Source of the DNA: Dysidea avara
Taxonomy: Eukaryota > Porifera > Demospongiae > Dictyoceratida > Dysideidae
Direction: 5' to 3'
Assembly: GCF_963678975.1 (NCBI RefSeq)
Contig: NC_089274.1
Location: forward strand, 17,811,633-17,875,632
Length of the DNA: 64,000 nucleotides
The notes beneath the pieces were generated by a model that had not been told where the DNA came from, searched no databases, and saw only the letters and a program-made list of their open reading frames with translations. The position numbers were made by a program, and so were the translations under genes. Below are positions 22,931 to 56,700 of the stretch, piece after piece. The stretch's first letter is position 1, and each line of letters opens with the position of its first letter.

Positions 22931-25900
22931 TCACATATCTGTGTCCTTCATAACAATTGGATTCACATCCTTCATTTCATTCTCATTTTCTTCATCTACT
23001 CCGATGCCACGATTACAAAGCGTCTTGTTGAAGAATCCCCAGGCTAGAAATCCAAATGCAACAGATATTATTCTAACAGCTACGGTTATAAGAAATAATC
23101 GCAGGCTAAGGTCCTCATTGTCTAGCACGTAGCAGTTCCCTCTGTCGCCACACTCCTCTTGCCAAAAAGCACAAGATGAATCAAATATAGCACCCATTAC
23201 AATAGGACCGGGTATAGACCCAAAAATTCTCACAAACACTGACTGTATTCCCAAAGCTAGACTCCTCTGTTCATCTGCAATGCATCTGTCCAAGAGTGAG
23301 AACAATGTATAAGCACATTCACAATCATACACTTATTGTCATCAACTTAGCATGTAAGTACATATTATTTACCTACCTTAAAGTAATTATAAGGTTCGGA
23401 ATTTGCGTTGCCATATTGGTGATTAGAGTAATTGCAACAACTATCAAAAATGGAGCAAGGACTTTACAGTTTTCATCACAAAATCCACGTCCAGCTCTTC
23501 CACTGGGAGAAGTACTACATGTACAATTCTCAAACCTTGGTTCCTATAAAATTCATAAGAACACAATCATAACATGCCTATATCGTGGCTATTGACATTG
23601 ACTATCAGTGTCAGTAAGTATCACCATGCATGCCATTAATATAAACTGTTCCCACCCATCACTCAAAACAACTTAAGAGTCAAGCACACTAGTTGTATGG
23701 TTGTATTAGGTGAGTTTACATCTAGGTTCCTGCTTGGCTTGCATTTATTAATGTAGAGCTCCAGCGATAAAAAGAAACACAACGGTAGCTATTACAACAT
23801 ACGCAGCTAAGTGGGAAAATCCCTAAATTGGCACATTGCCTATGCTGTAATAGAATATAAACCTCACTACGTAGTATTATGAACTCTTGGTAATAACTAC
23901 CATTACTCTTGTCTCTTTTTTAACCATGCGGGTGATAGATTGATAGTACTCACATCTCTATCACCATTCAAAAGGTACTTATCACAACCAGCTCGGCAGG
24001 GAGAGAAATAGGTGATCCCATCAGAACACACTGGTTCAAATATAGTTGATTTACAGTTACAATGACTGTTGCAAGTAGCATTAAGAGTCTGATCATCAAA
24101 TAGTGTGCTAATTGTCAAAGGAAATCACACAAGTATTAATCTACATACCATTAACACAAATAATAATTTATAGTAAATTTGCACAAGGTGTTTCTAGAGT
24201 TCCATAAATGGAAATATCAAATACTTGGTGCTATCATCGTGCAATTGCAAAGTCACATCTGTAACCTAGTTGCTAAATTATGTAATTAGTTAGCATGTTT
24301 ACATGTAGAGAATCTTTACAATTTTGAGGCTTTGAGATTGCTCTTTATTGTGTGGTACACTTGACTTCTTATGGCCTTTTCATAAAGCAAGCAATGCAGT
24401 TTGTGTAGCATTAGTGCTTACAATGTGGTCACACCAACATCCATTGCACGTGCATTTGAACATTGTGTAAACATCATTCTGTTCAGTTCTCTAATGACAT
24501 GACAGTTCTACACTTTTTTAAGAATTCAATATTGTTTTGTGCTATTTGCTAGTGTGATTGTGCGACCTTTGAAGGTAGGCCTTGGATGCAAGTCATGCAC
24601 TGTCAGCATTTAAAAGCAAGTCAACTGTACTCAATCGAGTGGTTTATAGGTTGACTAGTCTGAATATGTATTACCACATCCACATAGCCCATAAACAGAC
24701 TAGTCTTAATAGATATGTGCAGGCAGTTACATGTGATAACCACACGAAGAATTTACCTATCAGGATAAGGCACAGTTACACCAGCAACGTCATATGTTGA
24801 ACATCTTAAGAAGAACCCAAAGAGAAACACTGCTGATACCAAGTTAATCACAGTGTAGTAAAGCGTCAACCTCCTTGTGGGAGGCTTCAGAAAGAACACC
24901 AGCAGTGCACCTAAAATATACAGATATATAACGTATGCTCATAACACACATGAACCAACCTAATATAATTCCTGTTCCAGCAGAAAAGATTGAAACTGCT
25001 CCACTTACTAATCCAGCAGTGGAAGCTGTAAAGCCAAACTGTGCCTCTACATACTTGGGAAAGAACACCACAAGCCCAGCCACTACAAATATTTGTCCTG
25101 AAAATGCCAATACCATAAATAAAAATGGCAAGCGGGCCATTAAGTCAAGAAACTGTTTTGGAAGATCTTTCGGTTTAGGCCACTTATTTAAGTCCTCCTT
25201 TGTAACTTGTTTATTACGTTGGATAGACATCTGCTTAATTCTTTCTTGTTGTATATAATAAGTGTCTGGGTAAGTTTCAGGAAACATGAAAAAAGGAACT
25301 GACAGTACTAGAGACAGTACACCAAACAACACAAAGCCTATCCACCATGCTCCTACCCATCCAGTGTCGGTCTGTTCAAGAGTAGTTTCTGTCCAAGGAT
25401 CAACATATATAGTGAGAAAAGCACCACCCAATCCAAAGCCTATTGTGGGCCCAACAACTACAAGAACTGTGAAAATACCAAGCCAGATGGGGGAACGATT
25501 AGGATGAACAATATCATCTATGTATGATATCCCGACTGTAAAAAGTGGTGAAGCTCCAAGTCCCAACAAAATCATTGCAATGATGAACAAAAAGTAAACA
25601 TTGTTTGAATTATCATCACATTCCGGAGAGAAGTCTGAAGGATCACTGCATTCTTCCAAACTTAAATTTGCATGTTTTCCAATCTTGTAATCTTCAGTGA
25701 CAAATTGAGGAAGTGAAAACACTAGTGCACCAATTCCTTGTATGAAACAACCAACTCCCAGCAATTTGGGCTTTTGTCGTTTTCCACCAAAATAGCTGAT
25801 GAAAATTGCAACCAAGACAGTAACAAAATCAAAAGTGCTTGGTAACATTCCAAGTTGAGTACTAGAGAACTTGTATCGTTTCTCCAATGATGACAATGAG

Positions 25901-28900
25901 ACAGGTATTAAACCTAATAGTTACATGTAACACATTGTAAAGGTTGTATAAACATGTATTTCTAATACATGATCACAAGACACTGATTACAACTCCTTGT
26001 TTATACATAGCACTTAAAGTTTCATTCATATAGCTACATAGTTGTCTGCAAAAATAACACTTCAATTTAGCCATAGACAGGACAGAGATTTTGTTGTGGA
26101 GGGGGGGTTGAGGGTGGCAATACATTTTAGGATAAAACAGTGTTTAAAGATCAGGTTGGCATAGCTGGATATTTGCATTATGAGTCAAGTTGGATATCTC
26201 CTTAGAATAGTTTTAAGATTATAATCTGTTCACGTTCACCTGAGCTCTCATTTCTTGTTAATAATTCTTGTTACAAGGGCCAGCTGCTCAAATAGCTGTG
26301 AAGCCCTTTAAACACCAGAACTGTTTAGCAAAAAAGCACTTTGATACGGGCAAGAACAAGTGAGTGCGTTATGAGGCTTTAAAAATATCCCATACATTTA
26401 GTATGGACAATTCAGGTGCGCAAACATGTTTACAACATGAAAGCATACTTGTTCCAGTACGGGAGTGAACGCATGTTCACCTCTTTAATATTGCTATATT
26501 TGGCGGGGGTCAGGTGAATGCGTACTGACTATAGACTCCCTATCCTGTGATTGAATCTAAAGGTTTTTTTGATAGCTAGCTATTCAAGTGTGTGATTTGA
26601 AATATGTGACTGGATATGCGAAAACCCGACATAATGGTGCATTTTTCAAATTCTTTATTATTGAATATTTATAATCTACTTAGCCGAGTGTATGCTCTGG
26701 CCAAGTTTCAGCCTTGTATGCCAACAAATTTTAGAGTTACAGCCCTACAAAATAGCAGCAACAGAAGGGTTGATTTGTACAGCAAGTATTGGGAAAATAA
26801 ATTACAGTTGCTTACAAAAACGACTGTAACTTACACATGCAATGTAGTACAGAGTTGCAACTTACACCATCGTGTTTGCCATGAATAGGGGAGTCCATTA
26901 CATGGTAGGTTTTTTCTCCTACCACCTTTCTTCACTACATACAGAGACGAAATCAGTGAAGAAAAATCGATCGTATATGATCGCTTCGACGTGATGTAAA
27001 CAAACGCCCATAACTCATGTATCCTTTAGGCTACTACTACTACTACTACGAAACAAAGAGTTTCGAACTCCCCTTGAGTAGGCGAATAAGATGATATCCA
27101 TGTTTTTATCATTACATGCTTTCTTCACAAAAAACAAAGCATAAAAAAATTTAACAAATTATTTTTCATCTATGTAAATATTTTACCCATTGCAATCAAT
27201 AAATAGCCTATACTGAAAATTTAGGCTTGCGCTATTATGTCAGGCTTTCGCAGATCCGGTCACATATGTTAACGTCAGTTTTCTTACCTGTTTAATAGTT
27301 AAGTGTGTTGAGTATTAATTTTTGGAAGTAAAATGAGGCGGTACCATCATAACACACAATAGAAAGTTAACAATCTTTTATTAGAGTATAGGACTGTTTT
27401 ATTAGAGTATTTCAACTTTTTGATGCATACTATCCAATTGTGACCATCTTTTATATTCTCAGCATTTACTGGGGATATACCACTCTAGTAAACTAAGAAA
27501 CTTTAAGCAGTAAAGAGAAGGTTGAATACTCAGCATTTATGTATAGTTTTCAAGGAATGGATTACTGAAGTTTTAGCCACAGTTGGAATTATAGTGTAGG
27601 AAGGGCAAAAAATTGATTTGTACAGCGACTATACTGGATGAACTATTTTGCAGCCATAAGTTCTGTTTGTATTGATTTACAGAGTTGGAATTTATCTTAC
27701 AGTATTTACCTTGGATTGGCAAATTAATCAAAGCATAGTTTTATTCTTGTAGTCACTTGTGCATACATGTATGAAGGTATTTACGTGAAGAAATAACCAT
27801 CTTCTTTACATGTTTACTGCATTGTAAGCACAAATACACCTGACACCCATATTGTTGGGGCTACAGAAGATATTCAAACTCTTCATGAGCAGGCAAAAAA
27901 GATGGTGTATAGGTTTAATCAATTGGAACTTGCTTTCCTGAGTATTGGCTTGATTGAACATATTTTTTCTTTGTATAGCATGGTATAATTTCACCAGTTT
28001 TCTGAAAAGCATGCTTGTGCAAACTACACAGATTTTTACTTAGATGGTCACAACTGTCAAAGTAAAAACTTCTCTAAGACTTTCATTATACAAGACAGTC
28101 ATTACTGTGCAGGTCTGTGACTTATTTTTCTATCTCGTTTTAAAACCAAAACAGCTCAAATTGGGCTTTCTTCATCATTGGAACATCATTCCAAACACGA
28201 AGCCATAAAATATCATGCTAAAAGGTTGAGATTTGCTCACATACAAGGTTTGTTGCTAATCAAACCTGTTAAGCCAGGAAGCTTAACCTGCACTTAAAGA
28301 TTATGGTTTTCTTGTGATGATTGGTATGCATGGCCAAGTCATTGGGATGCGCTAACCATCAAGCCTCACAAAACTGAATTAGATAGAAGTTGGCTACAAA
28401 GAATGGTAAAACAGGTAGGTAAAAACAGAGGACCCAAGGACCACGAGGATCCAACTCTTCTTAATTCTATACACTTCACAATATTCTATACCTGTACTAG
28501 GTTCCTCTACAAGTAGTTTTACATGGCCAATCCCATCATGGTGTCTCATATACTAGTCTATTACAGGGTGTATGTCACCTATATTTCAGGGAAATAGCGA
28601 TTACTAGTTAAGTAAGTTTCAGTCCAGCAGCTCGACAACCAGACCTCATACACTGTGATGTGTTTGCACAATGTTTCTAAACTTTAGTAGCTTGGCAACA
28701 TATTAGACTAGTATGCTCATCGTGTAGCAGGAGAGTGACCTATAAATGGAGTCAGCTTCAGACACTTCTTCAAAGACGTTTACAATTTCTAATTAGAAAC
28801 ATCATGTGAGATATCATGACAGGGGAAAAAGTGGATTGGCCATGCAAGACTACTTGCGGAGGTATCTAGTACAATTGCGAAGTGTACAAAATTTCAAGAA

Positions 28901-34900: not shown

Positions 34901-37552
34901 TATCATGCGTTACATTGCGGTAAAGTTACTTGTTACTTTTTGCTTCTAGTTACTCGTTACGTAACATTATTACTTTTTTCGTTACTAGTAATGAATTATA
35001 GTTTCCAAAAGTAACTTAAAGTTATATTACCGCATTTCCAAAAGTAACTCATTATATTACTCAGAATCGTGAATTGTAATATATATTACATAACGCGTTA
35101 TATTACATAACGTGTTATCCCATCTCTGGCCTTAATTATGTTGAACAATTGTACACAGTTTTACCTTGTTTTGTTAAAATATGCTATAATTCATACAAAG
35201 TTGTGCATACCGTATAGCGGGTTATTGTAGCGTCTGAAATTTCCCACGAAATTAAAAGATAGCGGCAGAAAATTTAGCGATTGAATGGCAACGTTATTAA
35301 ATTTAAATCTTGCTTTTAATTACGATACGCACAAAAATCCAATGTAGCATCACTTGTAACAAGCACAAATCAGTTTGGTTTCAACTAGCAGAAGTCGTGG
35401 TGCATGGCATCATACATGCGACTGTTGCATCACTTTGTCAGCTGTCGTTCGCATCCCCGGTTGTATCCATTGTTACACATAGTTCTGCAAGGGCTGGGAG
35501 AAAGATTTTAATAGAGAACTAGACCTTGCTAGCAGGTCTGCAGGCTACATCCCAATCATTTTTAGTTCGAGCCATTAGTTAGTTCAGGTCATGTGCACCT
35601 TTCCTTATCCGCACTTCTTGCTTTGACTCGCATTAACTGTTCACAGCATTATCCCTGGCTTTAGCTGGGCAAAAACGTATCTTTCCAGACTGCTTAGTGA
35701 TGAAGCTGTGACCTTAGACTAAATGACACGATGACATTATTATCACGGTGCCAAAATTCTCACGAATTCAATTTTAGTAAATAGCCCCAAATGCTAAAAT
35801 TAATTCCTTGCTATAAAAACCCACTATACAGTATATGATGCTATTAATACATTGCATGCAAGGTTATCACATTGCCTAATTGCCACATCCTGCTACAAAT
35901 TATGACCTCACTCATGGATTATAAATAAAATTAATAGGCTAGTCAATACAGAAGAAACCTTTAAAATGCTGTATGACAGGAAATTTTGACAAAGGAAAAG
36001 ACACTTTATCAGCTTAAATGTTGGCAGAAATCAAGAAATTATACATTTAAACAAGAATATTAGCACTTATAGGAATTAGACAAATTATTTCAACAATACC
36101 TAATCCTAATTTTAAATTTTTTATATATCTATTCTAGATGAAATTTTTTGGTACAGAGTGATTTCAAATTTCAATGAAATAAACATACCTCAAGTTTCAG
36201 TTTTAGCTACAGTACCTGTGAAGGAAATGGGGTCTAGCTAACAGGGGACCACAGGAACCTTGACAAAGACTTTCAAAAAATGAAATACCCAGTAAACTAC
36301 TCCAAATATAGCTCAGCCATTGTCAAAGCCATTGTCAAAGCCATTGTCAAAGCCATCATCAAAGCCTTGCTAAAAAGTCTAGTCTTTTGTCGAGTCTAGT
36401 CGGCTTGTAACTAAGTGTGTTAATGGACGGAAATGAAGATAACCAAGTTTGTACGTGATTCCAGATTTCAGGAATCTAAATATTTAATGGCTTTCTCAAA
36501 CAGTGTAGCTATGAGAGTCCCACAAGGGGTGCGACATCTTCGCAAACCTGTACGTTATTTGAAATCATTTCGTGATTTGAAACCTGATTTGTGATTTGAA
36601 ACTTCACGCGTGATTCCTGGAGGAGACTGAGTGTGGCCCCGACTAGACATTGGGTGACCTGCAGTTCGATTCCTGGGGCTGGAGGGATTTTTTTCCTTAC
36701 TTTGGCCCCTTTTCTGTTACACCTTTTCAGCTATAAGTCACTAAGTCTAAGTCCTTGAAATTAGGTTAGGTAATCCTAAGGCTGCAGCACATGTTGCTGC
36801 AGACCTTCAGTGCTGGTCACTGTAAAGCATTAATACAATACAATACAACAATGTTGTAGTGTGATTTGTGAGGTTATTACAGGGTTCAAAGACTAGTATT
36901 GTATCACTGTGAGGTTGTATTGTTTAGAAATATGTTTTTGAGACTAGTTTCAAACAGTTTAAATTATTTGCGTGGGCGAAATCGCTCGGATTTGTTGATT
37001 TGTAATTTGGTAGCTGAAGGGTGTACGTGATTTGTAGAGGTGCCATACTCCCCCCAGAGTCCCAGGTTGTTGGCCCTTTGATATCAACTATGGCCAAGGA
37101 TAGAAAATGTTGGATGTGTAGTTTTATCAAAAGTGTAAATTGGGGAGGCCCAAATGCGGGACCTTGACTACTAAATCTTTCTGGCTACGCCCCTCGCTAT
37201 GCCCTTGACCTTGTAACGACTGTGATCATGTCATAAAATATTACCTCTAGATTTACACTACCCGGTATTTTTGTCATGTTTTCGTGTTATTAATTACCAA
37301 CTTCAATAACATGCCTTACACGACCTGTTTGGCATACAACATCATCAATATATAAAGGATCTATGATATACCTGATACAATAGCTCCTTCGGCCAATGTG
37401 AGAGAGTTAAGAACAAGCATGAACCAGTATGGCTTTGCGAAAAACTGCATACATCGCGGTCGACAGCAGAAAAGGCTGCACTCGTGGGCACCAGGTTTGG
37501 TACCGTCTGTTTGATCTATCTCTATCAGTTCGTCCTTGGTTGTTGTGTCCAT
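22931..37552 (-). CDS. SLCO: SLCO/OATP organic-anion transporter, copy B
   Basis: Exons 37552-37372, 25913-24960, 24910-24757, 24107-23954, 23543-23377 and 23285-22931 total 1965 nt, a 654-aa protein with the same phases as copy A. Exon 1 is read from the ATG at 37552 (MDTTTKDELIEIDQ) and ends LNSLTLAEGAIVSG. Exon 2 carries DTGWVGAWWIG, the OATP signature region, and YIDDIVHPNRSPIWLGIF. Exon 4 gives the Kazal-like loop (CNSHCNCKSTIFEPVC). Exon 6 has ALGIQSVFVRIFGSIPGPI. Exons 2 (954 nt) and 3 (154 nt) are exactly the lengths in copy A. Intron 1 is 11,458 bp; intron 2 is 49 nt. A fresh Ty3/gypsy element ends 144 bp upstream of the start codon in the same orientation. Function as in copy A; substrate cannot be told from sequence. 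Confidence 0.92.
26225..26530. repeat. Second copy of the 19185-19435 repeat
   Basis: Same ordered words as the first copy, with an extra segment (GTTTACAACATGAAAGC) in the middle. Sits 0.3 kb upstream of SLCO-B exon 2. Confidence 0.6.
28415..28964. mobile_element. DNA-transposon-like segment with inverted ends and 13-bp direct flanks
   Basis: The left end GTAGGTAAAAACAGAGGACC is matched, inverted, by GGTCCACTGTTTTTACCTACC near 28960. AATGGTAAAACAG occurs at 28402-28414 and again at 28965-28977. The direct repeat may be the target duplication or partly terminal sequence; the exact edges are uncertain. No transposase. A GGATCC-containing stretch inside both ends extends the inverted repeat. 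Confidence 0.6.
30917..31805. mobile_element. hAT-like insertion with TATAGACT target duplication
   Basis: Flanked by TATAGACT at 30909-30916 and 31806-31813. The sister hairpin element holds the same target once (50515-50522), so the empty site is known. The ends GGGGTTGGGC and CACCCAATCC are imperfect inverted repeats. The interior has ATTGC/AATAATCGCATT words and itself contains a CCGTATAG-type MITE. Confidence 0.7.
31287..31767. repeat. CCGTATAG-type MITE, third copy, inside the hAT-like insertion
   Basis: Left end TACCGTATAGCAGAAAC, right end the inverse of TACTGATAGCGGAAAATTTT. TA flanks. It makes a three-level nest: palindromic element, hAT-like element, this MITE. Confidence 0.6.
34511..35128. 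mobile_element. hAT-type MITE with 8-bp target duplication, second copy
   Basis: Ends CAGAGTTGGG and CCCATCTCTG (one mismatch as inverted repeats). GCCTTAAT stands at 34503-34510 and 35129-35136, an exact 8-bp duplication. The interior shows the same GTTAC/AATATTA-type low-complexity text as 7656-8147. Non-coding. Confidence 0.88.
35208..35833. repeat. Inverted-repeat element, CCGTATAGCGGG ends
   Basis: Left end TACCGTATAGCGGGTTATTG, right end the inverse of TACTGTATAGTGGGTTTTTA. No coding capacity despite a 70-codon open frame inside. TA at both edges. Confidence 0.6.
36610..36850 (+). repeat. tRNA-derived SINE-like unit
   Basis: Contains a polymerase III B-box-like GCAGTTCGATTCC preceded by a GTGGCC segment, then a non-tRNA body and a 3' tail of AATAC repeats (near 36830-36845). 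That order is the usual SINE plan. The 5' edge is approximate and the parent tRNA is not identified. Confidence 0.55.
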
Positions 37553-37695
37553 GTTGTTCAATGTCTGGCGCGGCCGCCCCTTCGATAAGAAGTCACCAGC
37601 GCGCACTAGCTGCAGCTTATAAGCGCCAGTAGGGTCTGGCCGAGACTATAGTTACTGAGTAGATTAATGTGATAACGGTAAACCTCACCACTACA

Positions 37696-37875
37696 TGTGG
37701 CGGTTGCTGCGGTGCGTTCACTAACAAGTCAAACAATTGTTAATAATTCTGTTAATCAATACAACAATCACCAGCACACTCAAGATTACAACAACTCATG
37801 ATAATTACAATCACGCGACTCTTTATACTCTACGTTACATCACTATAAGAAGTCTGTTCATTACGTAATACCACA
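37696..37875 (-). repeat. 3' LTR of the gypsy element
   Basis: 180 bp, TG...CA on either strand, identical to the other LTR as far as I can read. In element orientation this is the downstream LTR, and its outer end lies 144 bp before the SLCO-B start codon, pointing toward it. Confidence 0.93.
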
Positions 37876-37885
37876 TCTCCCCCTT
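37876..37885 (-). other. Polypurine tract
   Basis: On the minus strand AAGGGGGAGA directly abuts the 3' LTR, the position of the plus-strand primer in LTR retroelements. The pol stop codon overlaps it. Confidence 0.8.
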
Positions 37886-40800
37886 AAGAGAAACGGCGGG
37901 GGGGACGAATCTCAGTCCCAGTTTGACTTCTAGTCATCATTCGGTGAGGCTCTTCTGGTTCTGACAGTTCTTCATGAAACCCAGCATTAGATTCTTGAGG
38001 AACAACTCTTAATTGGATTCTGTTCCTCTGAAGTTGACCTGAAGGAGTCTCTACAAGATAGGATCTGGGGGTTTCTGCTGAAGTAACCACTCTGCCCGAA
38101 ACTGGACCATTATCAGAGTCTATCCAAACGGGAGTGTCATCGGGGATCATAGGTAAATCCTTGGTCCTATGACGTTTGTCAAAATTGTCCTTCTGTTTCA
38201 GCTTGTATGTGGCATCAGACTTCTGAAATTCTTCCAAATAGGTCCATTGAGGAATCAGCTTACAGTCTGCAGTAGGAACACAAGTTCGGATCTGTCTCCC
38301 CATACTCAATTCAGCTGGGCTCCTTCCACACCAGGGAAGAGGTGTTGACCTATAAGTAAGCATCGCCATGTATGGATCTTTACTGTTTTTCAGTAAATGT
38401 TTAACAGTTTGAACCATGCGTTCAGCTTGCCCATTACTTTGGGGATACTTGGGGCTGCTTGTGATGTGACAGAATCCATATTCATTTGCAAACTGAGTAA
38501 ACTCTAGAGCTGAGAATTGTGGACCATTATCGCTGCGAACTACTTCCGGGATTCCATGATGTGAGAACACATTTTTGAGGTGGCTAATGACAGCTGCTGA
38601 GGTAGTTGTAGTCAACTTGGTTACTTCAGGGTACCTTGAAAAATAGTCTACTGTTAACAAGTACTTGGTACCTTCCAGTTCAAACAAATCTGTCCCTATA
38701 ATTTGCCATGGATAATCTGGGAGTGTCGACTTGATCAGGGGTTCTCTCCTTTGTTGGGATTCTCTAGCACATGTGGGACACTGACGAACTATCTCAGCAG
38801 TATCCTTGGTAATCTCAGGCCACCAAACGGAGCACCTCACTCTGGCTCTACAGCGTTCGATCCCTTGATGCCCCTCGTGAATCTTTGCCAAGGTCTCCTT
38901 TCTTAAAGAAGAAGGAATAACAATACGCTGGTTATATAATAGCAAATTATTATGAAGCGAAAAGAAACTTTTCACCTTCCAAAATGCACTCAGGTCAACA
39001 TCTGTAGGAGATTTGGCAGGCCAACCCTCTAGGCACCATCTTTTCACTGTCATGCACGTCGAGTCATCATCCTGAGCATCTTTGTACTGTTTCAAGCGAT
39101 GCTCCCCAGCTGGTAGAGCTGCTACTACAGTATCAACAAACCATTCTACTTCTTCTTGAAGTTGATTGTCACAAAGTGGGGATGGTGCTCTTGATAAGGC
39201 ATCAGCTGTAGTCAATAGCTTTCCAGGTACATGTGACACAGTGTAATTAAACCTGGCCATTCTGAGTCTAAAACGAAGAATTCTAGGAGGTAAATGGTCA
39301 AGGTTTTTGGCATTCAACAATGGGATGAGTGGCTTGTGATCTGATTCTATTAGAAAGTGAGTACCCAGTATGTAGTTTGCAAATTTGTCACATGCCCATG
39401 TAACTGCCAGGGCCTCTTTTTCTATCTGGGCGTAGCGACGTTCAGTCTCCGTCATGGAGCGGGATGCGTACGCCACTGGCTTCCAGACTTGGCCTGACTG
39501 TTGGAGGAGAACCGCACCCAACCCGTAGGAGGATGCATCAGCAGATACTTTGCTGCTGGCTTCAGGGTCATAGAGTGCCAGGACTGTTGGTTGTGTCAAT
39601 TCAGTTTTAATTGCTATGAATGAATCTTCCTGTGTTGGGCCCCACACCCAAGCATGTGACGGACTCAGTAACTCACGTAATGGCTGACTAATTTGGGATA
39701 GCCGGGGAGAAAATTTCCCTAACTGGTTAGCCATTCCCAGGAACCTGCGTAGCTCAGTAACACTAGTAGGGGGTTTCATATTAGATACTGCTGCAATCTT
39801 CTCTGGGTCTGCTCTGATTCCTTGACTATCAACAAGGTGTCCCAGGAATTTCACAGATTTTTGGTTGAATTCACACTTAGTACGGTTCAGGGTGACATTA
39901 GCTGACTGTAGTTGCTGAAGTACTGCCAACAATCTAGAGTTGTGTTCTTGTGGGGTGGAACCAAACACAAGGATATCATCCATCTGGCATACTACCCCTT
40001 GCAGACCCTCAAGAATTCTCTTCATTCGTTTCTGAAATAGTTCTGGGGCACTTGTGATGCCAAAAGGCAATTTGTTAAAACAATACCGCCCAAATGGGGT
40101 TATGAATGTTGTAAGGTGGCGAGAATCTTTGGCAAGAGGAATTTGCCAAAACCCACTATTGGCATCGAGTTTGGAAAATATAGTGGCACCAGCTAACAAG
40201 GCTAAAGTTTCATCTACTTTGGGCATCGGGTGTACTTCTCTGAGAACACCTTCATTCAATTTCTTCAAATCGACACAAATTCTGATGGCCCCAGATTTTT
40301 TTGGAACCACCACCATCCCAGCACACCATGGTGTGGGCTCGTCAACCTTAGAAATAATACCACCAGACTCCATTCGAGTTAATTCTTCTTGGACTTTCTT
40401 ACGAAGCGGTAGTGGTATGTTACGAGGGGTATGAAGAGAATGTGGCTGTGCATCATCCTTGAGTTTAATCAAATATTCATCCCCTAAAGTGCCTAAACCT
40501 CGGAAAACTGTGGGAAACTGGCTGTAAATGTCCTCAGCAACCATAGTATGAATTCTGCAAATGAGCTGCAGTGCTGTGATGGCTGGTAATCCTAAGAGGT
40601 TGTGTCTCAAGTCCTGTGCTACGAAGATTTCCTGTCTAGATGAAATCTCTTTGTTAGACAGAGCACCTGTAAATTGTCCCAGTACAGTCAACTTTTGGTT
40701 GGCAGGTCCTGACAATATCTTAGAGGGCTTCTTCAACTCTGTTTTTGGAAGTGCACGGTATGTTTCCTCTGATATGGCTGTTACTGCAGCACCAGTGTCT

Positions 40801-41061
40801 AGTTTGAACTGAACAACTTTGGTATCCAGAGTCACTGTAACATACCAAGACGATTCTGAACTGGTTGCCATGGCATCTAGGAATGCAGTATCAAGGGACA
40901 GTTCTTCAACAGGAGGTAGTTTCTCACTGGGTGTGGTATCTACAGATAATTCATCAGTGGGTGAAGTGTCAACTGAAAATGTTTGTTTCTTAGTCTTGGA
41001 AAAACAAAGTGAGCTGTAATGCCCTCTTCTGTTACATCTGTGGCATGTGGCACTGATAGCT
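37884..41061 (-). CDS. pol: gypsy pol: second zinc knuckle, protease, RT, RNase H, integrase
   Basis: Open frame from the insertion boundary to the stop at 37884. In order: a CCHC knuckle (CHRCNRRGHYSSLC, near 41045-41004), aspartic protease with LDTGAAVTAI, reverse transcriptase (FSKLDANSGFWQIPL, FNKLPFGITSAPELFQ and a QMDDILVFG active site), RNase H (VSADASSYGLGAVLL, the acidic EKEAL, SDHKPL), and integrase with an HHCC finger (H..H..CPTC), core residues in GTDLFE, RSDNGPQF and NGQAERM, and a C-terminal domain. No frameshift or stop seen over nearly 1000 codons. It replicates the element through reverse transcription and integration. Its start is upstream in gag; the junction is now occupied by another element. 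Confidence 0.93.
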
Positions 41062-42099
41062 GGGCGTCTGGATTCAGTGGAATGGAATGGTGGACTGGAA
41101 TGGTGGAATGGACTGGACTGGAATGGAATGGTGGAATGGACTGGAATGGTGGAATGGACTGGACTGGAACAAACAATGGAATACCGATAGACTGACCATG
41201 GACTCCGACGCTTCTTGGATTATACACAGCTGTAGCGTCCCTGCGTCCTGAGCACAGTGAGGGCGCGAAGGGTTACTAAATCGCTTGGTCGCGGTGTCTA
41301 ACTTATTTAGATTATGGTTTAAATCACGTACCAAGCGTCTGTTCATCATCTTCTGAATCGTGCTCCGACGTCGACATAGCTAGTCACTTTCTACATTATC
41401 CACTGTACATATCTATACGGATGTCGACTTGTAATAATTATAATCAATTAATTAAGAGCTAGCTAGATCACGTGCAGCTGAAATGCCAATTACATTTGAT
41501 TTGTTGAATCGACTGTGTGATACATTACAACTGAACTGATGTACGAAAGTCCCAGCATAGATAATACGTGCTTATATTATCTATGACTCCAATCCATTAG
41601 GTGGCACTTATCTCTCAAACTCTTAGCGCATGTATTATTAATTATCGTTGGTTGTAGCTGAGCGTGCATTATTATAATTATATTGTGTACTGTGTAGGTA
41701 TGATTATAATGCACAGGTGTAATTATAATTGTGTCCAAATCATTAAAAAACTCAGTGTAGCTATGCGGGAGCGTTAACAATGTTCTGGGGTACTGGTCTC
41801 GCGTGGCCAGACCCTTTCCGCACAGTCGCTTATCGATTGGAGATTATAAGTTTTGTATTGGCATCACGCTGACTTCTGCCATACGTACTGGTATATACCT
41901 ACGTAGTCTATAATATCTATGGTGCTGAGTATAATCCCGGCAGCGTCGGAGTCCATGGCCAGTCTACCGGAATAGTCTACCGGAATTCCACCAGTCCATT
42001 CCACCATTCCAGTCCATTCCACCATTCCAGTCCATTCCACCATTCCAGTCCATTCCACCGTTCCAGTCCACCATTCCATTCCACTGAATCCAGACGCCC
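41062..42099. mobile_element. Foldback/MULE-like element inserted in the gypsy element
   Basis: 1038 bp. The ends are GGGCGTCTGGATTCAGTGG in inverted orientation, matching over at least 42 bp with one difference. The exact 9-bp direct repeat CTGATAGCT lies at 41053-41061 and 42100-42108. Each arm continues into a minisatellite of ATTCCACCATTCCAGTCC-type units, then a further shared block (ATGGACTCCGACGCT...GGATTATAC), so arms are about 150-180 bp. Long inverted repeats made partly of tandem repeats plus a 9-bp duplication are the hallmark of foldback elements, whose transposases are MULE-type. No transposase is encoded here. The centre (41230-41920) is unique and may include captured exon-like DNA. 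Confidence 0.88.
41330..41390 (-). other. Exon-like fragment carried inside the foldback-like element
   Basis: Minus strand: ATG starts MSTSEHDSEDDEQTLG and ends at a donor-like G|gtacgtga. A candidate acceptor (GCGATTTAG) follows near 41280, but the joined frame soon reaches a stop. This looks like the first coding exon of some host gene captured by the element; chance is possible. No family recognised. Confidence 0.3.
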
Positions 42100-42833
42100 C
42101 TGATAGCTGGACACTTAACACCTTCTGGATGTCTACTGTGACCACACCTACTGCATGCTTGTGCAGATTGTTGTCTGTCTGGCAACATGCCTCCTCTGAG
42201 TTGTTGTGGGTGGGGTGTGGTTTTTCCACCAATGGCTCTCTTGTTGGAATACTTGGATACAGCATCCACTACTACAGGATCTTGCATGGTCCCTTCACCT
42301 TTTAACTGACGTTGCTGATCTTGTACAGCTTCGTTCAAACGTACTGCCTTCTTAGCTTTGTCGAGCGTTAGTTCCGGGTCGAGCTGAAGGCGTTTGGAAA
42401 TGGCTTCATCTCTTATTCCAACAACAATTCTGTCACGGAGCATCTCTTCTGTTAAGTTTCCGTACTCACAAGTCTCTACTAAGGCATAAAGCTCGGAGAT
42501 GTACTGCTCCACCGTTTCACCAGGTAATTGGTTGCGACGATTAAATTTGGCTCTTTCAAAAATTACGTTCCTTCTAACTTTGAAGAACCCGTCAAGTTTG
42601 GCCAGGACAGTGTCATATTTCTTTCGTTCTTCACTAGTAATTCGCGTGGAAGTTAGAACGTTGTCCGCATTTTCTCCCATCGTATACAACAGTGTGCTCA
42701 CTTGTCGAGTTTCAGATTCTCCCGATAAACCAGACGCTTCTCTAAACTGTTCGAATCTTCTTTTCCATTTGGACCAGCTGTCTGGATTATTGAAGTCGAA
42801 AGGTTCCGGCGTTTTCAACTGAATGCCAGCCAT
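42100..42833 (-). CDS. gag: gypsy gag (capsid and first zinc knuckle), cut by insertion
   Basis: Starts at MAGIQLKTPEPFDF (ATG at 42833, overlapping the primer site; the frame is also open upstream into the LTR). A capsid-like region (SWSKWKRRFEQFREASG, GETVEQYISELYALVETC) and a basic region follow, then a Cys/His knuckle (CSRCGHSRHPEGVKC). The frame then runs into the foldback-like insertion. The sequence on the far side of the insertion is in the same frame, so before that event gag and pol were one continuous reading frame. Beyond 42100 the apparent WNGGMDWNGGMD-type residues come from the inserted minisatellite, not gag. Confidence 0.88.
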
Positions 42834-42849
42834 CCCACTCCTGTCACCA
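42832..42849 (-). other. Primer binding site, tRNA-Leu type
   Basis: Directly after the 5' LTR the minus strand reads TGGTGACAGGAGTGGGAT. This is complementary, with one mismatch, to the 3' end of eukaryotic tRNA-Leu (CCCACTCCTGACACCA). The decayed relative at 47.5 kb has TGGTGTCAG at the same place. Confidence 0.75.
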
Positions 42850-43029
42850 TGTGGCGGTTGCTGCGGTGCGTTCACTAACAAGTCAAACAATTGTTAATAA
42901 TTCTGTTAATCAATACAACAATCACCAGCACACTCAAGATTACAACAACTCATGATAATTACAATCACGCGACTCTTTATACTCTACGTTACATCACTAT
43001 AAGAAGTCTGTTCATTACGTAATACCACA
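42850..43029 (-). repeat. 5' LTR of the gypsy element
   Basis: 180 bp, identical to the copy at 37696-37875; followed on its outer side by the CTACA duplication. Confidence 0.93.
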
Positions 43030-43034
43030 CTACA

Positions 43035-43900
43035 CATAGCACCTCGCCATAGCACTATTGATCATAGAGTATCCTCCACAGTTGCAACATTACTGATATC
43101 CCATGCATGGTCGGGCCCGGCTACACTATCAATATAGCCTCAGGCTACTAAGAATTTTTACAAATGAAATGCATATGCCACTCTTCAGGTTCATATTAGT
43201 CTATACTATATAGCTAGGTGAACTACTCATGGCTGTCACTTCAGTATCCCTACACTGTACAGCTATTGATCAATGTGTTCCACTCAAGTTGAAGCAGTAT
43301 GATTTAGACTGACTAAACCAAAATTTTCACTGAGTTACTCAAATATAGTGCACCCCCCAGACCCTCTGCTCCATATGCCTACTATCCTAGTGCATCCTCA
43401 CTTGCCAATCCCTGGATCTACGCAGGAGCATATAATATAGTCTTAAAAGTTTAGGGATTCACTGAAGCTTTCAGTTCACAAATGCCAATAGTTGCCATCA
43501 ATAACACTAACTATAGCTATAACTAATACAGCTGCATTTCAAATTATGTGAACTTTCACAAATGCTTTCATTTAAATGAGTCCTCACTTGTAAAGTATCC
43601 TCACTTTATCATCATTTTAAACATGAGAAACAATGGAAGTATGAGCAATGCCGTATTCAGGAAATTGAGATGGGTTCAGTCTTGTATCCCACTTGTATTT
43701 TCAAAATTTGGAAAAGACTTGCTTTCCTTGTCTCTCTTCAGAAGGAGACAGTTCAGTGATGTCATGGCCTGTGTTGTCATATGAGTCTTTATAAAACTAT
43801 TGTCCCTGGTACTTGCTTTCTCCCTGTATGCAGCCAAATCGAAGTATTCTTGCTAAGAGTAGGAAGTGGTCGAGTTCTGTGCCTCTACAGTTGAATTGTA
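43035..43900. other. Intergenic DNA between the two gypsy elements
   Basis: About 870 bp with no coding frame of substance and no recognised repeat edge. It belongs to the spacer between SLCO-C (3' side) and SLCO-B (5' side). Any original SLCO-B distal promoter DNA pushed away by the gypsy insertion would lie here. Confidence 0.45.
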
Positions 43901-46900
43901 TTTGTTGTTTGAACTTTTAGTTGTCGTCAGCTTCTTAAATACTTCAGGTGAGACCAGTGGGGAGTCAGCTCAGGGGTGAGTTGAGGTAAGTTCAGTGGCA
44001 ATTTTCCATCTAAACAATAACTCTGCAGGGCTGAGAGAACTCCACAGAGTCAAAGAAGCAAAAGGAATGGCACAGAACCTGACTGGTGTTTTACTGCTGA
44101 AACAGTAGCTACCAGTTTCGATGAATTTAATTTGCTTTGAAATTGTCAAGAGAATTGTAGGGATGGCTTGATAGCTGGGTATAGTAATGCCATGTGAGGA
44201 TCTGGAGATCCTTGGAGTAGTCCTTTAACCATCCTCACCATGCACTCTTTCTACCAAACCATTGCTCTGTGAGTATCGTGTAACATGATGGAAGCCATAC
44301 TGAAATTAAACTGTGGTCCAATGTCAGTTACCAGTGTTGATGGGATGCCATGCCTCCCAAAAATAGATATGAGAGCATTGCTAAGATGTGCCCTTTGCCT
44401 GCTGAAGATGTACTGCCCCAAGACCACGTCTGTAAATACTGATTTTAGTTTGTGCCTAAGGTTTGTACATTATTAATATTGTACATGTGAGGTGTCGTTA
44501 GTTCTGTTTTCGGTTGATTAAAGGCTCTATCCTGGTCTGGACCCCAAGGCCAAACTTGGTTGGTACTACACAGTAAATTCAAATGGATCAATTTGACCTC
44601 CAAGGGTATATTTAAACTATAGAAATAATGACCATCTAAAGGTGGTTGTAACTAGGGTAGGGAATTTGAACTAAATAAGTCAAAATAACTAGGGAAGGTC
44701 AATATCAAATGGTACTACTGTTTAAGTAGGGAGGTGCCTCTCAGCAACAGCAAGGTTGATGGCTGGAGGCACACGGGACACTTGGATCTAGAACAATCCC
44801 CTGATACACATTACTGAAGAGCGCAGCAAGGAGAACCCCAAACTACAGCGAAGCCTGCCCATAACCGCATAATACGGGGAACTCCACTTCTCCCTGAGCA
44901 AATGGGCAAGATGTTTATAAGTGATGGTATCTGCGACTAATACAAGTTACATTGTAGCTAGCTGTGCCACAACAAAAAACTAAACAAACTAGTATTTTTA
45001 AAAAATTGTTAATTTAAAAATGAAGTAGGGATCTATGCAATAAAATGTAGTGAAACTAGAGATGAATGATGGTGTTACAGCATAGCTCCGTGGGAAAGTC
45101 TCTACTTAGGCACATTAGCTATTATTATTTGTTCAATGCCAAGGTAGAGACTTCCCACTGAGCTGTGCTGTAACACCATCATTCATCTCTTGTTTCACTA
45201 CTTTTTATTGCATATGCATAGATCCCTACTTCATTTCTAAATTAACAATTTAAAAAAAAAATACAAGTAACTGTTCACTTAGGATGTTAAGTGTGTATTG
45301 TCAAGTCTACTATGGTAAAGATTTAGATGGCCAGCTACATGGTTATTTTTACAGTACACTCACTACATTGGCCATTATAACAATTGTGTTCATCCTACAA
45401 TCAAAAGTGAACATGGAGAACATAGGTTTTATATACAATTTGAAAATTCTATGTCATAGATAGATTAATGTATGTCATTACTAGTGATGACTGACTCGTT
45501 AATTACTGTAAACAAACAAAAATATTTTGTGACATGGGTTAATCTTACCACAGATGGTTAAAATGACCATGATGGCAAGATTATTTCAAACACTTGGCTA
45601 GAGGCTGAAGAGACTATAGAGTAATATGACTATATCTTACAAAGTTTAAACAAACAAGTACATTCTTGGGTCATTACTACCAAAAATCAGTCATTTGAAT
45701 TGAAGGTAAAACAACCCAAAAATTTGGGTCGTTTGTACCCATTTGAATTTACAGTGTGTGTAGTGTATTCAATGGAGCAGAGAATTCAGCTGTGTTAGGA
45801 TCTAGTGAACTTTCCAAGTTGGTTGATAACTCCCATAAACCTCCATAGTTCAGTAACATTAATTTTGTAGGAAGAGGCATTTCTTTGATGGCTGACAGCT
45901 TCTCAGGATCAGCAGATACCAGATTTGTTGATAATGTGACCAAGGAAGGTTTTCCCACACTCACACTTTGCTGGGTTTAAGGTTATTCCAGCATCATGAA
46001 TTCTAAGCGGCACAGCTCATAGTCAAGTGTCATGTTCAGTATTGTCACCACCAAGTACTAATATGTCATCAAAATGTCTGGGCAGATGTTCTAAAATATG
46101 CTCATCTGCTTCTGAAAAAAAGCAACAACTCAATATCCCAAAGGGGAGTTAATTAAAATAACGCCCAAAACATGTTAAAGGTGATAAGATCTTAGCTAAT
46201 CACACCTGCCAAAAGCCACTACTGACATATCCAACTTGAATGCACTCTCCCTCCTTGAAGCTGAGCTAAGGTGTCTTTTCAATGTGGAATGGGATGTATT
46301 TTCTAAGCACGTTCTGGCTTTAGGTCTAGGCATGTGCAAACCCTCCAGAATTTTTCTGGACTACTACGTAGCATGCTCTCACACCAAGCATGCTCTCACA
46401 CCAATTGGTTGGCTGATCAACTTTACTTATAACTCCTGTGGCCTCCATCTGTTTGAGCTCTTGCTCAACCTTATGTCAATGGGGAATTGGTATCCGGCGG
46501 GCTGAGAACAGTGCATATGGCTTAGCATGTTGTTTGGTTTTTATTTTATATTCAGCATTCATTGTTCCAGTAGCCCTTGAAATAGTTCTAGGAATTGGGA
46601 AATAATACTGCTGGTATTGTCACCAATAGCATCGACCATTGTAAGGATATTTAAAGTCATGATAACTGGGAGACCCAACAAATCTGGTTCAGTGTTTTAC
46701 AACATACCCACATCTGGTGTTTTATTGTTCTTTTTTTGTACTATAATTTGGTCCAACACATCCAGAGGCTATCTACTTGATCCTCAGAGTATCTTCGTTG
46801 GCTGGGCTGACCGATGGCATCAATATACCTCCTTGGAAATTGCAGTGACTTCCGCTTCTGTATCAACCTTAAATACCATTGCATTGTTAGTCACCATTGC

Positions 46901-50700: not shown

Positions 50701-53700
50701 TGTTACTGTGAAACAAGTTGATGCTGTGCTACTAGTTAAATTACCAGTCACCCATGTAGATAACACTATCCCTACATGTATATAATTTAGTTAATGCTCT
50801 GCTATTATTAAGTAAATATTGCAATTTAGTGTATTTCATAATTATTTTGCAATTCAGTAATTAAGTTGCCATCCACTGTTAAGGAAGCATAACCCATAAC
50901 CGCACTAACTTGTGCAGCTTCGTACATTGTTGTATATTTCCCAGACAAGTTTTTGTGTGAGACACATTAGTGCATCTGTGGATCACTGGTAAGAAATCTG
51001 CTTAGATTTCTGCCAGTTTCATCTCATTAGAGAGTTCACATACATGCACTGACACCCCCCAATGTGATAGAATCACAATGGCTTACCCATCTGATACAGT
51101 AGCTAAAGGCATAGAATCTATACTATATACCACTCAAGCTATACAATTTAATAGCACCCAAGAATTTCCTAAGACAGAAATTGGAAAGTTGTTAGAAATT
51201 TATCTAGAAATTAGAAGCAATTTTCTACTCTATATTTCAAAATATCATCAACGTATTTTGCATGTGAAGGACTAGTCAGAAGGACCCCTTGCTTCATTTC
51301 AGTTTGCATAAGTACAGGACATGCCTCCTTCACCTCAAAGGAATTCATTATTCCCGGTAGCCTACAAGGCTAGATTTTCAGTTGTTCTATGCCCATACAG
51401 CTCACTGTGAAAGGCAATTCACATTGTCTTCAGGAATCCATTTCACCTGTATTTCAAGCTGGCACAAATAAACATCTCAAAATGAAAGCTTACCTATAAT
51501 ACTGGTACTGTATAGCCTTCATACAGGCTGCTTTTAACATAAAAAAACTTATTGCTCACATGGGCAGAAAGATACAGAAACACAAATTTCCCAAAAGAAT
51601 TACAATAATTAGACACATGATCCACAACTGGTCAAATATTACTTCTGATCGCACAAAGACTATGATATTTCACATGGTATTTCACAAACCTTAATACGAT
51701 CACTGGGTTAGGAATTTGAGTTGCCAAGGTGATAATAAATCCCAGTGTAATTGCAATCACAAAGGGTGCAAGCATCTCACAGTTATCATCACAATATTCT
51801 TCTTCTGCAGTATCAGCACCACCACATGTGCAATTCTCAAATCTTGGCTCCTTCAATTAATACATACAAACTGATAAATCCTAATTCTACTATTAATTAA
51901 GAATTATCAATAGATAAAATCAAGAGTACATAATAAAAATAGGGAGGGAGAGTGTCTAACTAGGACACCAGCAAAAGCTTTACTTTATTCAACACCTATC
52001 AACAGCACTCAACACCTATCAACAGCACTCAACACCTATCAACAGCACTCAACACCTATCAACAGCACTCAATACCTATCAACAGCACTCAACACCTATC
52101 AACAGCACTCAACGCCTATCAACAGATCTCTATCATCAGTAAAAGTGTTTATTTGTTCAAAGATCATTGTCTTTTATAATACACAGTGATTTTGTACAGG
52201 CTGCATTGGCAGTTAGACACTCTCCCTCCCTAGATTTATTATGTACTCTTGATAAAATACACAGGTAGAATAACATTAATGAGCAACAAAATCATACAGC
52301 TTGCTAGAGCCATATAGTTGGTTCCACTTTGTAATGCATAAGTGCAAGGTTGTATGTATATATATAGTAACGTAACAGCTGTTGTCACCAGTATACATGC
52401 ACTGTATGTGCATGCTAGTGTATAGTGTACACAACATGTGTGCATAGATGCAGTGTGTGTGAATGTGTGTGTCTCAGTCAATGTTAAAACTCATGCTGCA
52501 CTCACATCTCTATCACCATTCAAAAAGTACTCATCACAACCAGCTTGGCAGGGGGAGAAATAGGTAATCCCATCAGAACACACTGGTTCAAATATAGTTG
52601 ATTTACAGTCACAATGACTGTTGCAAGTAGCATTAAGAGTCTAATCATCAAATAGTGTACTATATAGATCATATAAAAATATGTACACATCATCACACAT
52701 TACATTCTACTACCTGTTGGGATAAGGAACTGTTACACCAGCTATGTCATGTGTTGAACACCTCAAGAAGAATGAAACCATGAATAAAGTTCCTATAGAA
52801 CTCAACACAGCAAAATAGAAAGTTAGCGTTTTAGTCTTTGGTTTTATGAAGAACACCAGAAGAGCACCTAGAGTTAAATAGATAGTTAGTGTCAAATAAC
52901 AAATAGCTTACCCAACATGATTCCTACTATGGCAGATGGTATACCAATTGCTCCAGTTATTAAGCCACTAGTAGAAGCAGTGAGACCAAATTGTGTCTCA
53001 AAATATTTAGGAATAAATGAAGAAATCCCAGCTGCTACTAATGTTTCAAGAGCATATGATATTGACACACACATAAATGGCACATTGACCAGCAAGCCAA
53101 CCAACTGACGTGGAAGTTCTTTAAGGTGAAATTTAATGTTTAGGTCTTCTTTGCTTATTTCTCTTTTATATTTAATAGACATTTGCTTAATTCGTTCTTC
53201 TTGTATAAAATCAGTGTCTGGATACTTCTCAGGAAACATAAAGAAAGGAATACTTATCAATAACGAGATTATTCCAAAAATAATAAAGCCTATCCACCAA
53301 GCACCCACCCAACCTGGATCGGATTCTTCAAGGGTGGTCTCTCTCCAAGGGTCAACATAAGCTGAAAGAAAACTGCCTCCAATTACAAATCCCAATGTTG
53401 GCCCTATCACTGCACAAGTATAGAATATACCAAGCCAAATGGGAGCACGTTTAGGATGAACAATATCATCAATGTAAGAAACTCCTATTGTGAAGAGTGG
53501 AGCACTTCCAAGAGCAATCACAATGATTGAAAGAATAAATAAAAAGTATATATTGTCTGACTCCCCACACTCTGGGGAGAAGTCATTCTCATCTCTGCAT
53601 TCCTCAAGTGTCAGATTGGCATTCTTCCCAACATCATAATCACCAGTAATAAACTGTGGCAATGCAAACAATAGTGCTCCAATTCCCTGTATGAATACAC

Positions 53701-56700
53701 CAGCTCCCAACCACTTGGGCTTGTGGCTGTTCCCACCAAAATAACTGATGAGCACTACTGTCACTACTATAGTAATGTCAAAAGTAGCTGGTATCATTCC
53801 AAGCTGGACACCAGAAAACTTGTATCTTGTCTCCAGTGATGAAAGGACAATAGAAATCATTCCTAAAGTAAATGATACCTTTGTGTACATATGTCATCAC
53901 ACACACACACAGGGCTGAGTAATATTATCGTTTTATTGATATATCGCGATATTTTGTTATTAACTATTGTGATACCACGACTGTACATTATTGTCATTAA
54001 AATTCCATTTGTTATGCAGTACTAGGTTAAGAATCCTTGTTAGTGATAAGCTGGTTACCACTGCAGAGAGGTGTGAACACCATAACATAACCTCAAAGCA
54101 TGTGTTACAATAACTGTTACTGTAAACAAGGATGATGGTGGCTAGTTTGGTACTACCTTTAAAGACTTCCTGCAGGAATTCTGAGCAATGCACTACATAG
54201 GCGGTGGAATAGGGGGGGCTATGGGACTGAAGCCCCTTATCGCTCTGCTGAAGAATGATATCATGCTGAAATTATCCTCCTTGGAGTGGGGCTGAAAACC
54301 GTGATAAATATTGATATACTCTAATATAATGCTCAAATACCCTAATAGAGCAGTCAAGGCCTTCATAACAGTGTTCCTAAAAGAAGTTAAAAAAAGCAAA
54401 ACGAAAAAGTTACCTACAGCGGGAATCGAACCAGCTGCCTTTTACTTTAAGGTTGGTATCTTATCACTGTATCAGGTGTTTCCAGGTGGCTATAGGCTGT
54501 TTTGTACTGCTTATAAATGCTATATGTTCATTAACCCTGTAGTCAACAACAAAAAGCTTTGCCAAAAAGTGTTTTAAATAGTTTTAACTAAAAGTTGGTG
54601 TTTTAGTTAAAATGCTTTAAATTGTACCTATAAAATTAATTTTGGTGAACTCTGAGTCATTGTGAAAGCTAAAATGGCTACAGCTTCTGGTGGGCTGCAG
54701 ACCCCCTGCTGCCAGAGACTCTATACTCTGGTCAGTCCCCCCTCATATCATCTACTTCCTCCGCCACATCAGCTATGATTGACTTATTTGTAAGTATCGC
54801 GAACTATTCAGTATTGTGAATAGCGACTTTAGTATCAATCGTGATACTAAAATGGCAGTATCGCTCAGCCCTAATACACACATACATACATTAGTATATT
54901 TAAAATAAAAATGAAGCGATAAAAAGTAGTGAAACAAGAGATGAATGATGGTATTACAGCATAGGGAAAATCCTTACATTGGCATGTTTTATAATAAATA
55001 AATCATTTTGTTCAGTGCCAAAGTAGGGATTTTCCCACCGAGCTATGCTGTAATACCATCATGCATCTCTTGTTTCACTACTTTTTATTGCTTGGACCCC
55101 TACTTCATTTTCAATAATATACTAGTTTGTTTAGTATTTTTGCTATAGTGTACAGTGTGGCTTTTCTATTAGGGTAATTGCTGTATTAGAGTATCTCAAG
55201 CCTACCAGGGGACATGTCACCATTAATTTTTTCCATAATTATTGTCATTGTGCTACCATTATGAATGCAGCTAGACCAATAATAAGGGGTGTGGTCATTG
55301 TGATCGAATAAATATATTAAGAAGTATGGTCCCCTACACTTGATCGTTATTAATCAACCAAGATCGTTATAGCCAATGTCTTGAATCTATCGTGAAGTTG
55401 CAGGTATCTACTGAGCATAACTGCTTTAAATAATTTTGTGGCATTGGTCAAGTTGATATGGAAAATTAATGCTTCAATATGGTTTCATTACATCAAGAAG
55501 ATGAACCTGATTGAAAATAAAAGGAAAGACAAGGCACAGAGGACACACACTCATCGGAATCCCAAAATGCACATGCCACTGCATGGTGAGTTTGTTAATA
55601 TTGTGGTATAAAATGGTGGCTGTGCGCTGCTTTGTTTAGCCTCCAGCCTTGTAACTGTGGTCAGGCAGGGAGGCAAGCAGGCTGGCAGACAAAAGTTCAA
55701 GCCTTGGTTATTAGTTTTAAATTCTATATCTGGCCGGCTGTAAATGTTTTCTTGTTTTTAATGCTGTATTTATGTTAGATGGACTAATGATGTTCCGTAA
55801 AGGTGATTTTTGTCACGTAAGATGTCTATAGGATGGTAGCATTTTAGGTAGTGCGCGTCACTTTTGGAGGGATCCCTACTTAAACAGTACTACCGTACTG
55901 ATACATACATACATACACATATACATACTAGTCCAGACCAATTTGTTTCTTTTGTGTGTGTGGGTGAGGAAAAAAGTGGTCTGGTACACTTGCATTAAGA
56001 ATTACATGCATTCCCAATGGTGGGTGCTGATTGGTGAAGCCATTCTCTTCTTACACTTTGACTGTTGTCAAACAATATGGTAATATTGTTTAGTAGGGTT
56101 CCCCCTAAAGGGATAGGCACAGCTAAAAATGCTGCAACTATAAAAATGTCATACGTGATGAAAATCACCTTTACAGAAAAGTTGAACATCTAATACAGCA
56201 TTAAAAACAAGACAACACTTAGCATAAATAATTGATTATCATAAAAAACAAACTTCGAAGCACTAATGGAAGTAATCACCTTATTACTGTACATCAAGCC
56301 AAAAATTAATCAGTTTCATCATCATTAATCTATTATTGTCCGCCCAATACATTGCCATAGATCTATTATTGATGGGTTTAGAAACTTTTCCCTCTAACTT
56401 TCTGTGGAATTTATAGATTTACAAAAGATTTTTATATAATGTGGGGATATCCTTGAAGAGCCAATGGCTCAGGTTTGGTGCAGTACCATCATTCTGTAAT
56501 TACGTTACAGGTTTTTGTGGTTGGCGAAACCCACCAAACTGCTCGCAATAACTTGGTAACTAGTACCTAGGACTAGTAGAGAAAATACTTTTTTAACACT
56601 TACCAGTAAAGAACACCACATATTTTGCTGCTTGTTTAATCCGTATACTACTATTCTCATTATATGTATTACCATTCAAGTTATGCATGCCTCAATATTA

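Follow-up and report, generated by a model that had tools for sequence, protein, structure and literature searches.

Muta1 of Aedes aegypti is described as a type 2 foldback element (PMC5225508). The Muta elements have been grouped with Phantom, and the duplications of this group are given as 8-10 bp; for Mutator-like (MULE) elements, target duplications of 8-11 bp, usually 9 bp, are given (PMC6446971). The general phenomenon had been described before; the family reported here is a new one, of a type known from mosquitoes and nematodes. The end sequence of this family was absent from the literature text that we searched, and the text search produced no match for a foldback transposon in a sponge genome. 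The element under study is located in the window, i.e., the whole 64,000-nt stretch of sponge DNA analyzed, at positions 41062-42099 (1038 bp, contig C3; Table 1).

Table 1. Features of the element, its target duplication and its host retrotransposon (window positions)
Feature	Position	Strand	Evidence or remark
Host gypsy retrotransposon, interrupted by the element	37696..43029	-	LTRs and Pfam domains
Left copy of the 9-bp target duplication, CTGATAGCT	41053..41061	+	single copy in 3/3 empty sites
Left tip GGGCGTCTGGATTCAG	41062..41077	+	window sequence; identical tip in family copies
Left arm, TGGAA/TGGAC/TGG words in tandem	41078..41169	+	tandem-repeat analysis
Inner inverted repeat, left arm	41181..41230	+	50 nt, 86% complementary to 41924-41973
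16 initial codons of exon MSTSEHDSEDDEQTLG	41330..41377	-	longer form on C14
Dispersed-repeat piece	41668..41792	.	85-87% identity to 11 further loci among the matches listed
Inner inverted repeat, right arm	41924..41973	-	pairs with 41181..41230
Right arm, ATTCCACC/ATTCCAGTCC words in tandem	41985..42083	-	tandem-repeat analysis
Right tip	42084..42099	-	window sequence
Right copy of the 9-bp target duplication, CTGATAGCT	42100..42108	+	perfect match to left copy

The element has long inverted ends made of tandem repeats, as in foldback-type DNA transposons. Inverted-repeat analysis found the outer 60 nt of the two ends to be 97% complementary, in agreement with the preliminary description of this DNA, where at least 41 of 42 terminal bases were reported to match. 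When up to 3 mismatches are allowed, the end sequence GGGCGTCTGGATTCAGTGG occurs just twice in the window, at 41062-41080 (+) and 42081-42099 (-); in 100 shuffles, the mean number of matches was 0.01, and none of the shuffles contained two. Arms composed of minisatellite units, as originally proposed, are borne out by tandem arrays in both arms, with reported periods of 5, 13, 18, 23 and 36. When the element is folded as single-stranded DNA, the arms pair, with a minimum of -242.6 kcal/mol (a value computed without a shuffle control). No long transposase-like frame is present in the 1038 bp. The dispersed-repeat piece, judged by eye, is probably the 3' end of a non-LTR retrotransposon. No Rfam match was obtained at the gathering threshold for window positions 35000-45000. 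Elsewhere in the window, there is a minisatellite with a 20-bp unit (51989-52125, 6.8 copies, 97% matches), and a frame with a guanylate/adenylate cyclase catalytic domain (PF00211; 5029-6216, minus strand).

The Pfam search of the host gypsy gave reverse transcriptase, RNase H and integrase above the cut-off and protease below the curated cut-off, whereas the Gag piece matched no Pfam entry. Its LTRs, delimited by eye, are 180 bp long (37696-37875 and 42850-43029) and identical, with a 5-bp duplication CTACA; the identical stretch defined by program is 182 nt (37694-37875 and 42848-43029). A genome search with the right flank identified 19 places including the window, 92-100% identical. Three of the 18 other gypsy copies found were fetched, and in all three the element is absent, CTGATAGCT is present once, and the two flanks share an overlap of exactly 9 bp. 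These empty sites confirm the insertion into gypsy, and the perfect 9-bp duplication was likewise read correctly in the preliminary description. The duplication would have been left by a staggered cut at insertion. Since the arms are satellite-like arrays, the locus might instead be viewed as a transposon look-alike, i.e., an inverted satellite or a segmental duplication; however, the tips are fixed, the 9-bp duplication is different at each site, and the empty gypsy copies already refute this explanation, the probability of which we consider negligible. Three pieces of organic anion transporter (OATP) genes (PF03137) are found on the minus strand (15373-16575, 24847-25920 and 52895-53893), i.e., a tandem gene cluster surrounds the gypsy insertion.

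The genome searched is a single assembly, with 108 contigs that add up to 550.8 Mb. When up to 2 mismatches were allowed, the 19-nt end had 571 matches (281 forward and 290 reverse), compared to a single match for the control, the same end read backward. Exact ends number 194, and these include 46 neighboring inverted pairs within 12 kb, with the median of 1147.5 bp (one of the 46, a 7.9-kb pair, is not one element). Another 102 exact ends have no exact partner. Two of these were sampled for partners within 1.4 kb, with one partner (2 mismatches) found for one end and none for the other; some of the remainder fell in loci already fetched. Target duplications of 9 bp were found in all 20 complete elements fetched, a non-random set that consisted of best matches, pairs and one sampled end; 17 duplications are perfect and three have one mismatch. 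Excluded from this count were the relic on C14 (L066), a lone end (L078) and the outer end at L072, for which no second end was found. The search for inverted pairs of ends that the preliminary description had recommended revealed a multi-copy family, with copies dispersed and associated with target duplications and empty sites. That description had named a lack of other copies, or copies without the 9-bp duplication, as evidence against it, and neither was encountered. The base preceding the tip in the 194 exact ends (28 A, 60 T, 33 C, 73 G) departs from the assumed 37.8% G+C (chi-square 53.7, a rough value because the ends of one element are not independent), suggesting a mild target-site preference. 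The 29-nt end had no match in viral and prokaryote collections, from which records close to the genome of the window are possibly absent.

Two unrelated interiors, types A and B, occur inside the common arms. Type A, the type of the window copy, is represented by seven copies. Their interiors (7 x 822 bp) differ by a total of 4 substitutions: two in the window copy, one in each of two others, and none in the remaining four, one of which carries a 9-bp insertion. Arm length varies by a few words among the type A copies, and one copy contains an additional insert near an end. The type B interiors are 91.7-97.4% identical in nine copies (median 94.55), and were not matched when the seven A interiors were used as queries (E 1e-5). 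Judging from these identities, type B is older than type A, and type A spread recently because its seven interiors are nearly identical. The preliminary description had deduced a very recent insertion, and a family that is probably still mobile, from the LTRs of the host. The LTRs are indeed identical, but 180 bp dates the gypsy poorly because such a length without a difference still permits an appreciable age; a stronger argument for youth is how little the seven A copies differ from each other. Conceivably, the tip and the TGGAA-type array form a portable end cassette, i.e., unrelated cores (A and B), each bounded by an inner inverted repeat of its own, became mobile by gaining the same outer arms, perhaps through recombination between arrays, and are served by a transposase of a foreign lineage; we consider this scenario unlikely.

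Several longer end pairs were also examined. The 7.9-kb pair of exact ends on C14 was rejected as an autonomous copy: its right end is part of a separate element of 875 bp that has a duplication of its own, and no partner was found for the outer left end (L072). A protein encoded beside this outer end was also rejected: it has 145 hits in the genome, and the two closest relatives fetched lack the end with up to 5 mismatches. This Pfam-less protein family, in which several of the hits are identical (L072:503-1485, minus strand; L075:1456-2370, plus strand), looks repeat-encoded; in L075, a MULE domain on the matching strand is located approximately 2 kb away. The 3.4-kb pair is a type B copy that contains another repeat with inverted minisatellite arms; such a repeat, with long arms, is located in the type B copy at L061 (C3:46525900-46529700; element positions approximately 404-2604), i.e., one foldback-like element is nested in another. 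The 1.9-kb and 2.2-kb pairs are type B copies with an extra piece, which is retrotransposon-like by eye in the former and contains no long frame in the latter.

The element is a non-autonomous foldback DNA transposon, and we consider it probable that it is moved in trans by a MULE transposase and that type A originated by internal deletion. The transposase, which would be encoded elsewhere, presumably recognizes the ends common to types A and B, namely, the 16-nt tip and the TGGAA/TGGAC/TGG arrays. A MULE partner is the most likely one because of the 9-bp duplication, a length that is usual for the superfamily and is seen in 20/20 elements (with one mismatch in three), and because of the likeness of the arms to those of Muta1 and Tm1. 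It should be noted that, of the foldback/MULE link drawn in the preliminary description, the foldback anatomy and the 9-bp duplication stand, but no MULE gene was found in the elements examined. MULE domains are common in the genome (of 410 candidates, 150 were scored, and all 150 matched). The distance from each of these hits to the nearest of the 194 exact ends exceeds 17 kb, and the full-length copies with a MULE transposase and shared ends expected from that link did not emerge from this set. The best 30 MULE loci, searched with approximately 1.5 kb on each side, contain no family end even when 3 mismatches are allowed; matches with 6 mismatches occurred at 5 of the 30, which is chance-like. 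There was no MULE gene between two family ends among the elements examined, in a search that would miss an autonomous copy if both of its ends were inexact or if its transposase was one of the candidates left unscored.

Alternatively, an element of the same non-autonomous type could depend on a transposase from a different superfamily (Merlin-like, P/Galileo-like, hAT or undescribed). We regard this alternative as possible but rather unlikely. It is compatible with the result that no transposase was found with family ends, and foldback-like ends are reported with unrelated transposases, which speaks against the MULE reading: Galileo combines such ends with a P-type transposase (PMC3169594). 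Merlin is described as making 8-9 bp duplications (PMC4482050). However, hits of the Merlin type (IS1016/IS1595-type transposase, PF12762) are few (21 among 24 candidates), several contain stops, and none is within 99 kb of an exact family end, exact ends being the only ones mapped. The 9-bp length is also constant in all 20 elements. P and hAT elements usually produce duplications of 7-8 bp.

That type A arose from a longer coding element through an internal deletion is suggested by one broken relic on C14 (L066). The relic has a diverged end (3 mismatches), with an arm and inner repeat as in type A, and matches 472 bp of the type A interior at 87.7%, then continuing into a 75-aa open exon followed by the donor-like GTATGT. 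Type A retains 16 codons of this exon, beyond which the sequences diverge; we read the divergence point as a putative deletion junction, and type A looks like a deletion derivative of the longer relic. Neither a second genomic copy of the exon nor a Pfam match was found, and because of this it may be the start of a lost transposase or of something captured. The right end of the relic was not found in 16.9 kb. The relic is interrupted by an ISL2EU element and by a hAT element (the latter recognized by its domains, with ends assigned by eye).

The relic continues into frames with HTH_Tnp_4 and DDE_Tnp_4, and THAP and YqaJ-type frames are found farther along, as if the partner were an ISL2EU (PHIS) transposase and type A its deletion derivative. 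This candidate was dropped, and we consider it highly improbable. A separate ISL2EU left end is present at L066:1414 (over 78 nt, it shares 70.5% identity with the end of a related copy), indicating that the ISL2EU element, whose right end was not found, is nested in the relic; in the present family, the combination of DDE, HTH, THAP and YqaJ frames was encountered only there. Furthermore, ISL2EU is described as making AT 2-bp duplications (PMC4482050), compared to 9 bp in 20/20 elements of the present family. The genome contains at least 152 matches to the ISL2EU-type DDE domain, and two copies on C5 and C9 (among L067, L068 and L069) are 99.5% identical over 3.85 kb; thus, the ISL2EU group has also moved recently.

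To what was already described, the family adds one young burst, along with clean empty sites and a pair of unrelated interiors in common arms. Since arm lengths differ between copies with identical interiors, it is a handy case for studying how tandem-repeat arms originate and change, and is useful for asking whether the arms alone suffice for movement. Among the known systems, Tetris and Galileo of Drosophila have long, internally repetitive inverted ends, and Tetris is apparently non-autonomous as well, although its repeats are about 220 bp (PMC4079207), and the Galileo transposase is of the P type (PMC3169594). In the published account of Tm1 of root-knot nematodes, the inverted ends are composite with a variable number of tandem repeats, the duplications are mostly 9 bp, and there are several interior classes, as in the present family; in contrast, Tm1 has asymmetric 7-bp terminal motifs outside the inverted part and a MULE transposase of the Phantom type, and is old and inactive (PMC3169594), whereas type A is young. 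Muta1 is reported to have a terminal motif followed by short tandem repeats in long inverted ends, 8-9 bp duplications, and over 300 non-autonomous derivatives with common ends, variable interiors and variable repeat number. It differs from the present family in sequence, in units of 12 bp as opposed to words of 3 or 5 bp, and in its autonomous copies with a 504-aa transposase mobile in yeast, of which no counterpart was found here (PMC5225508). The MULE reading is supported because Muta1 and Tm1, both with transposases of the MULE type, share tandem-repeat ends, duplications of 8-10 bp and mixed interiors with this family.
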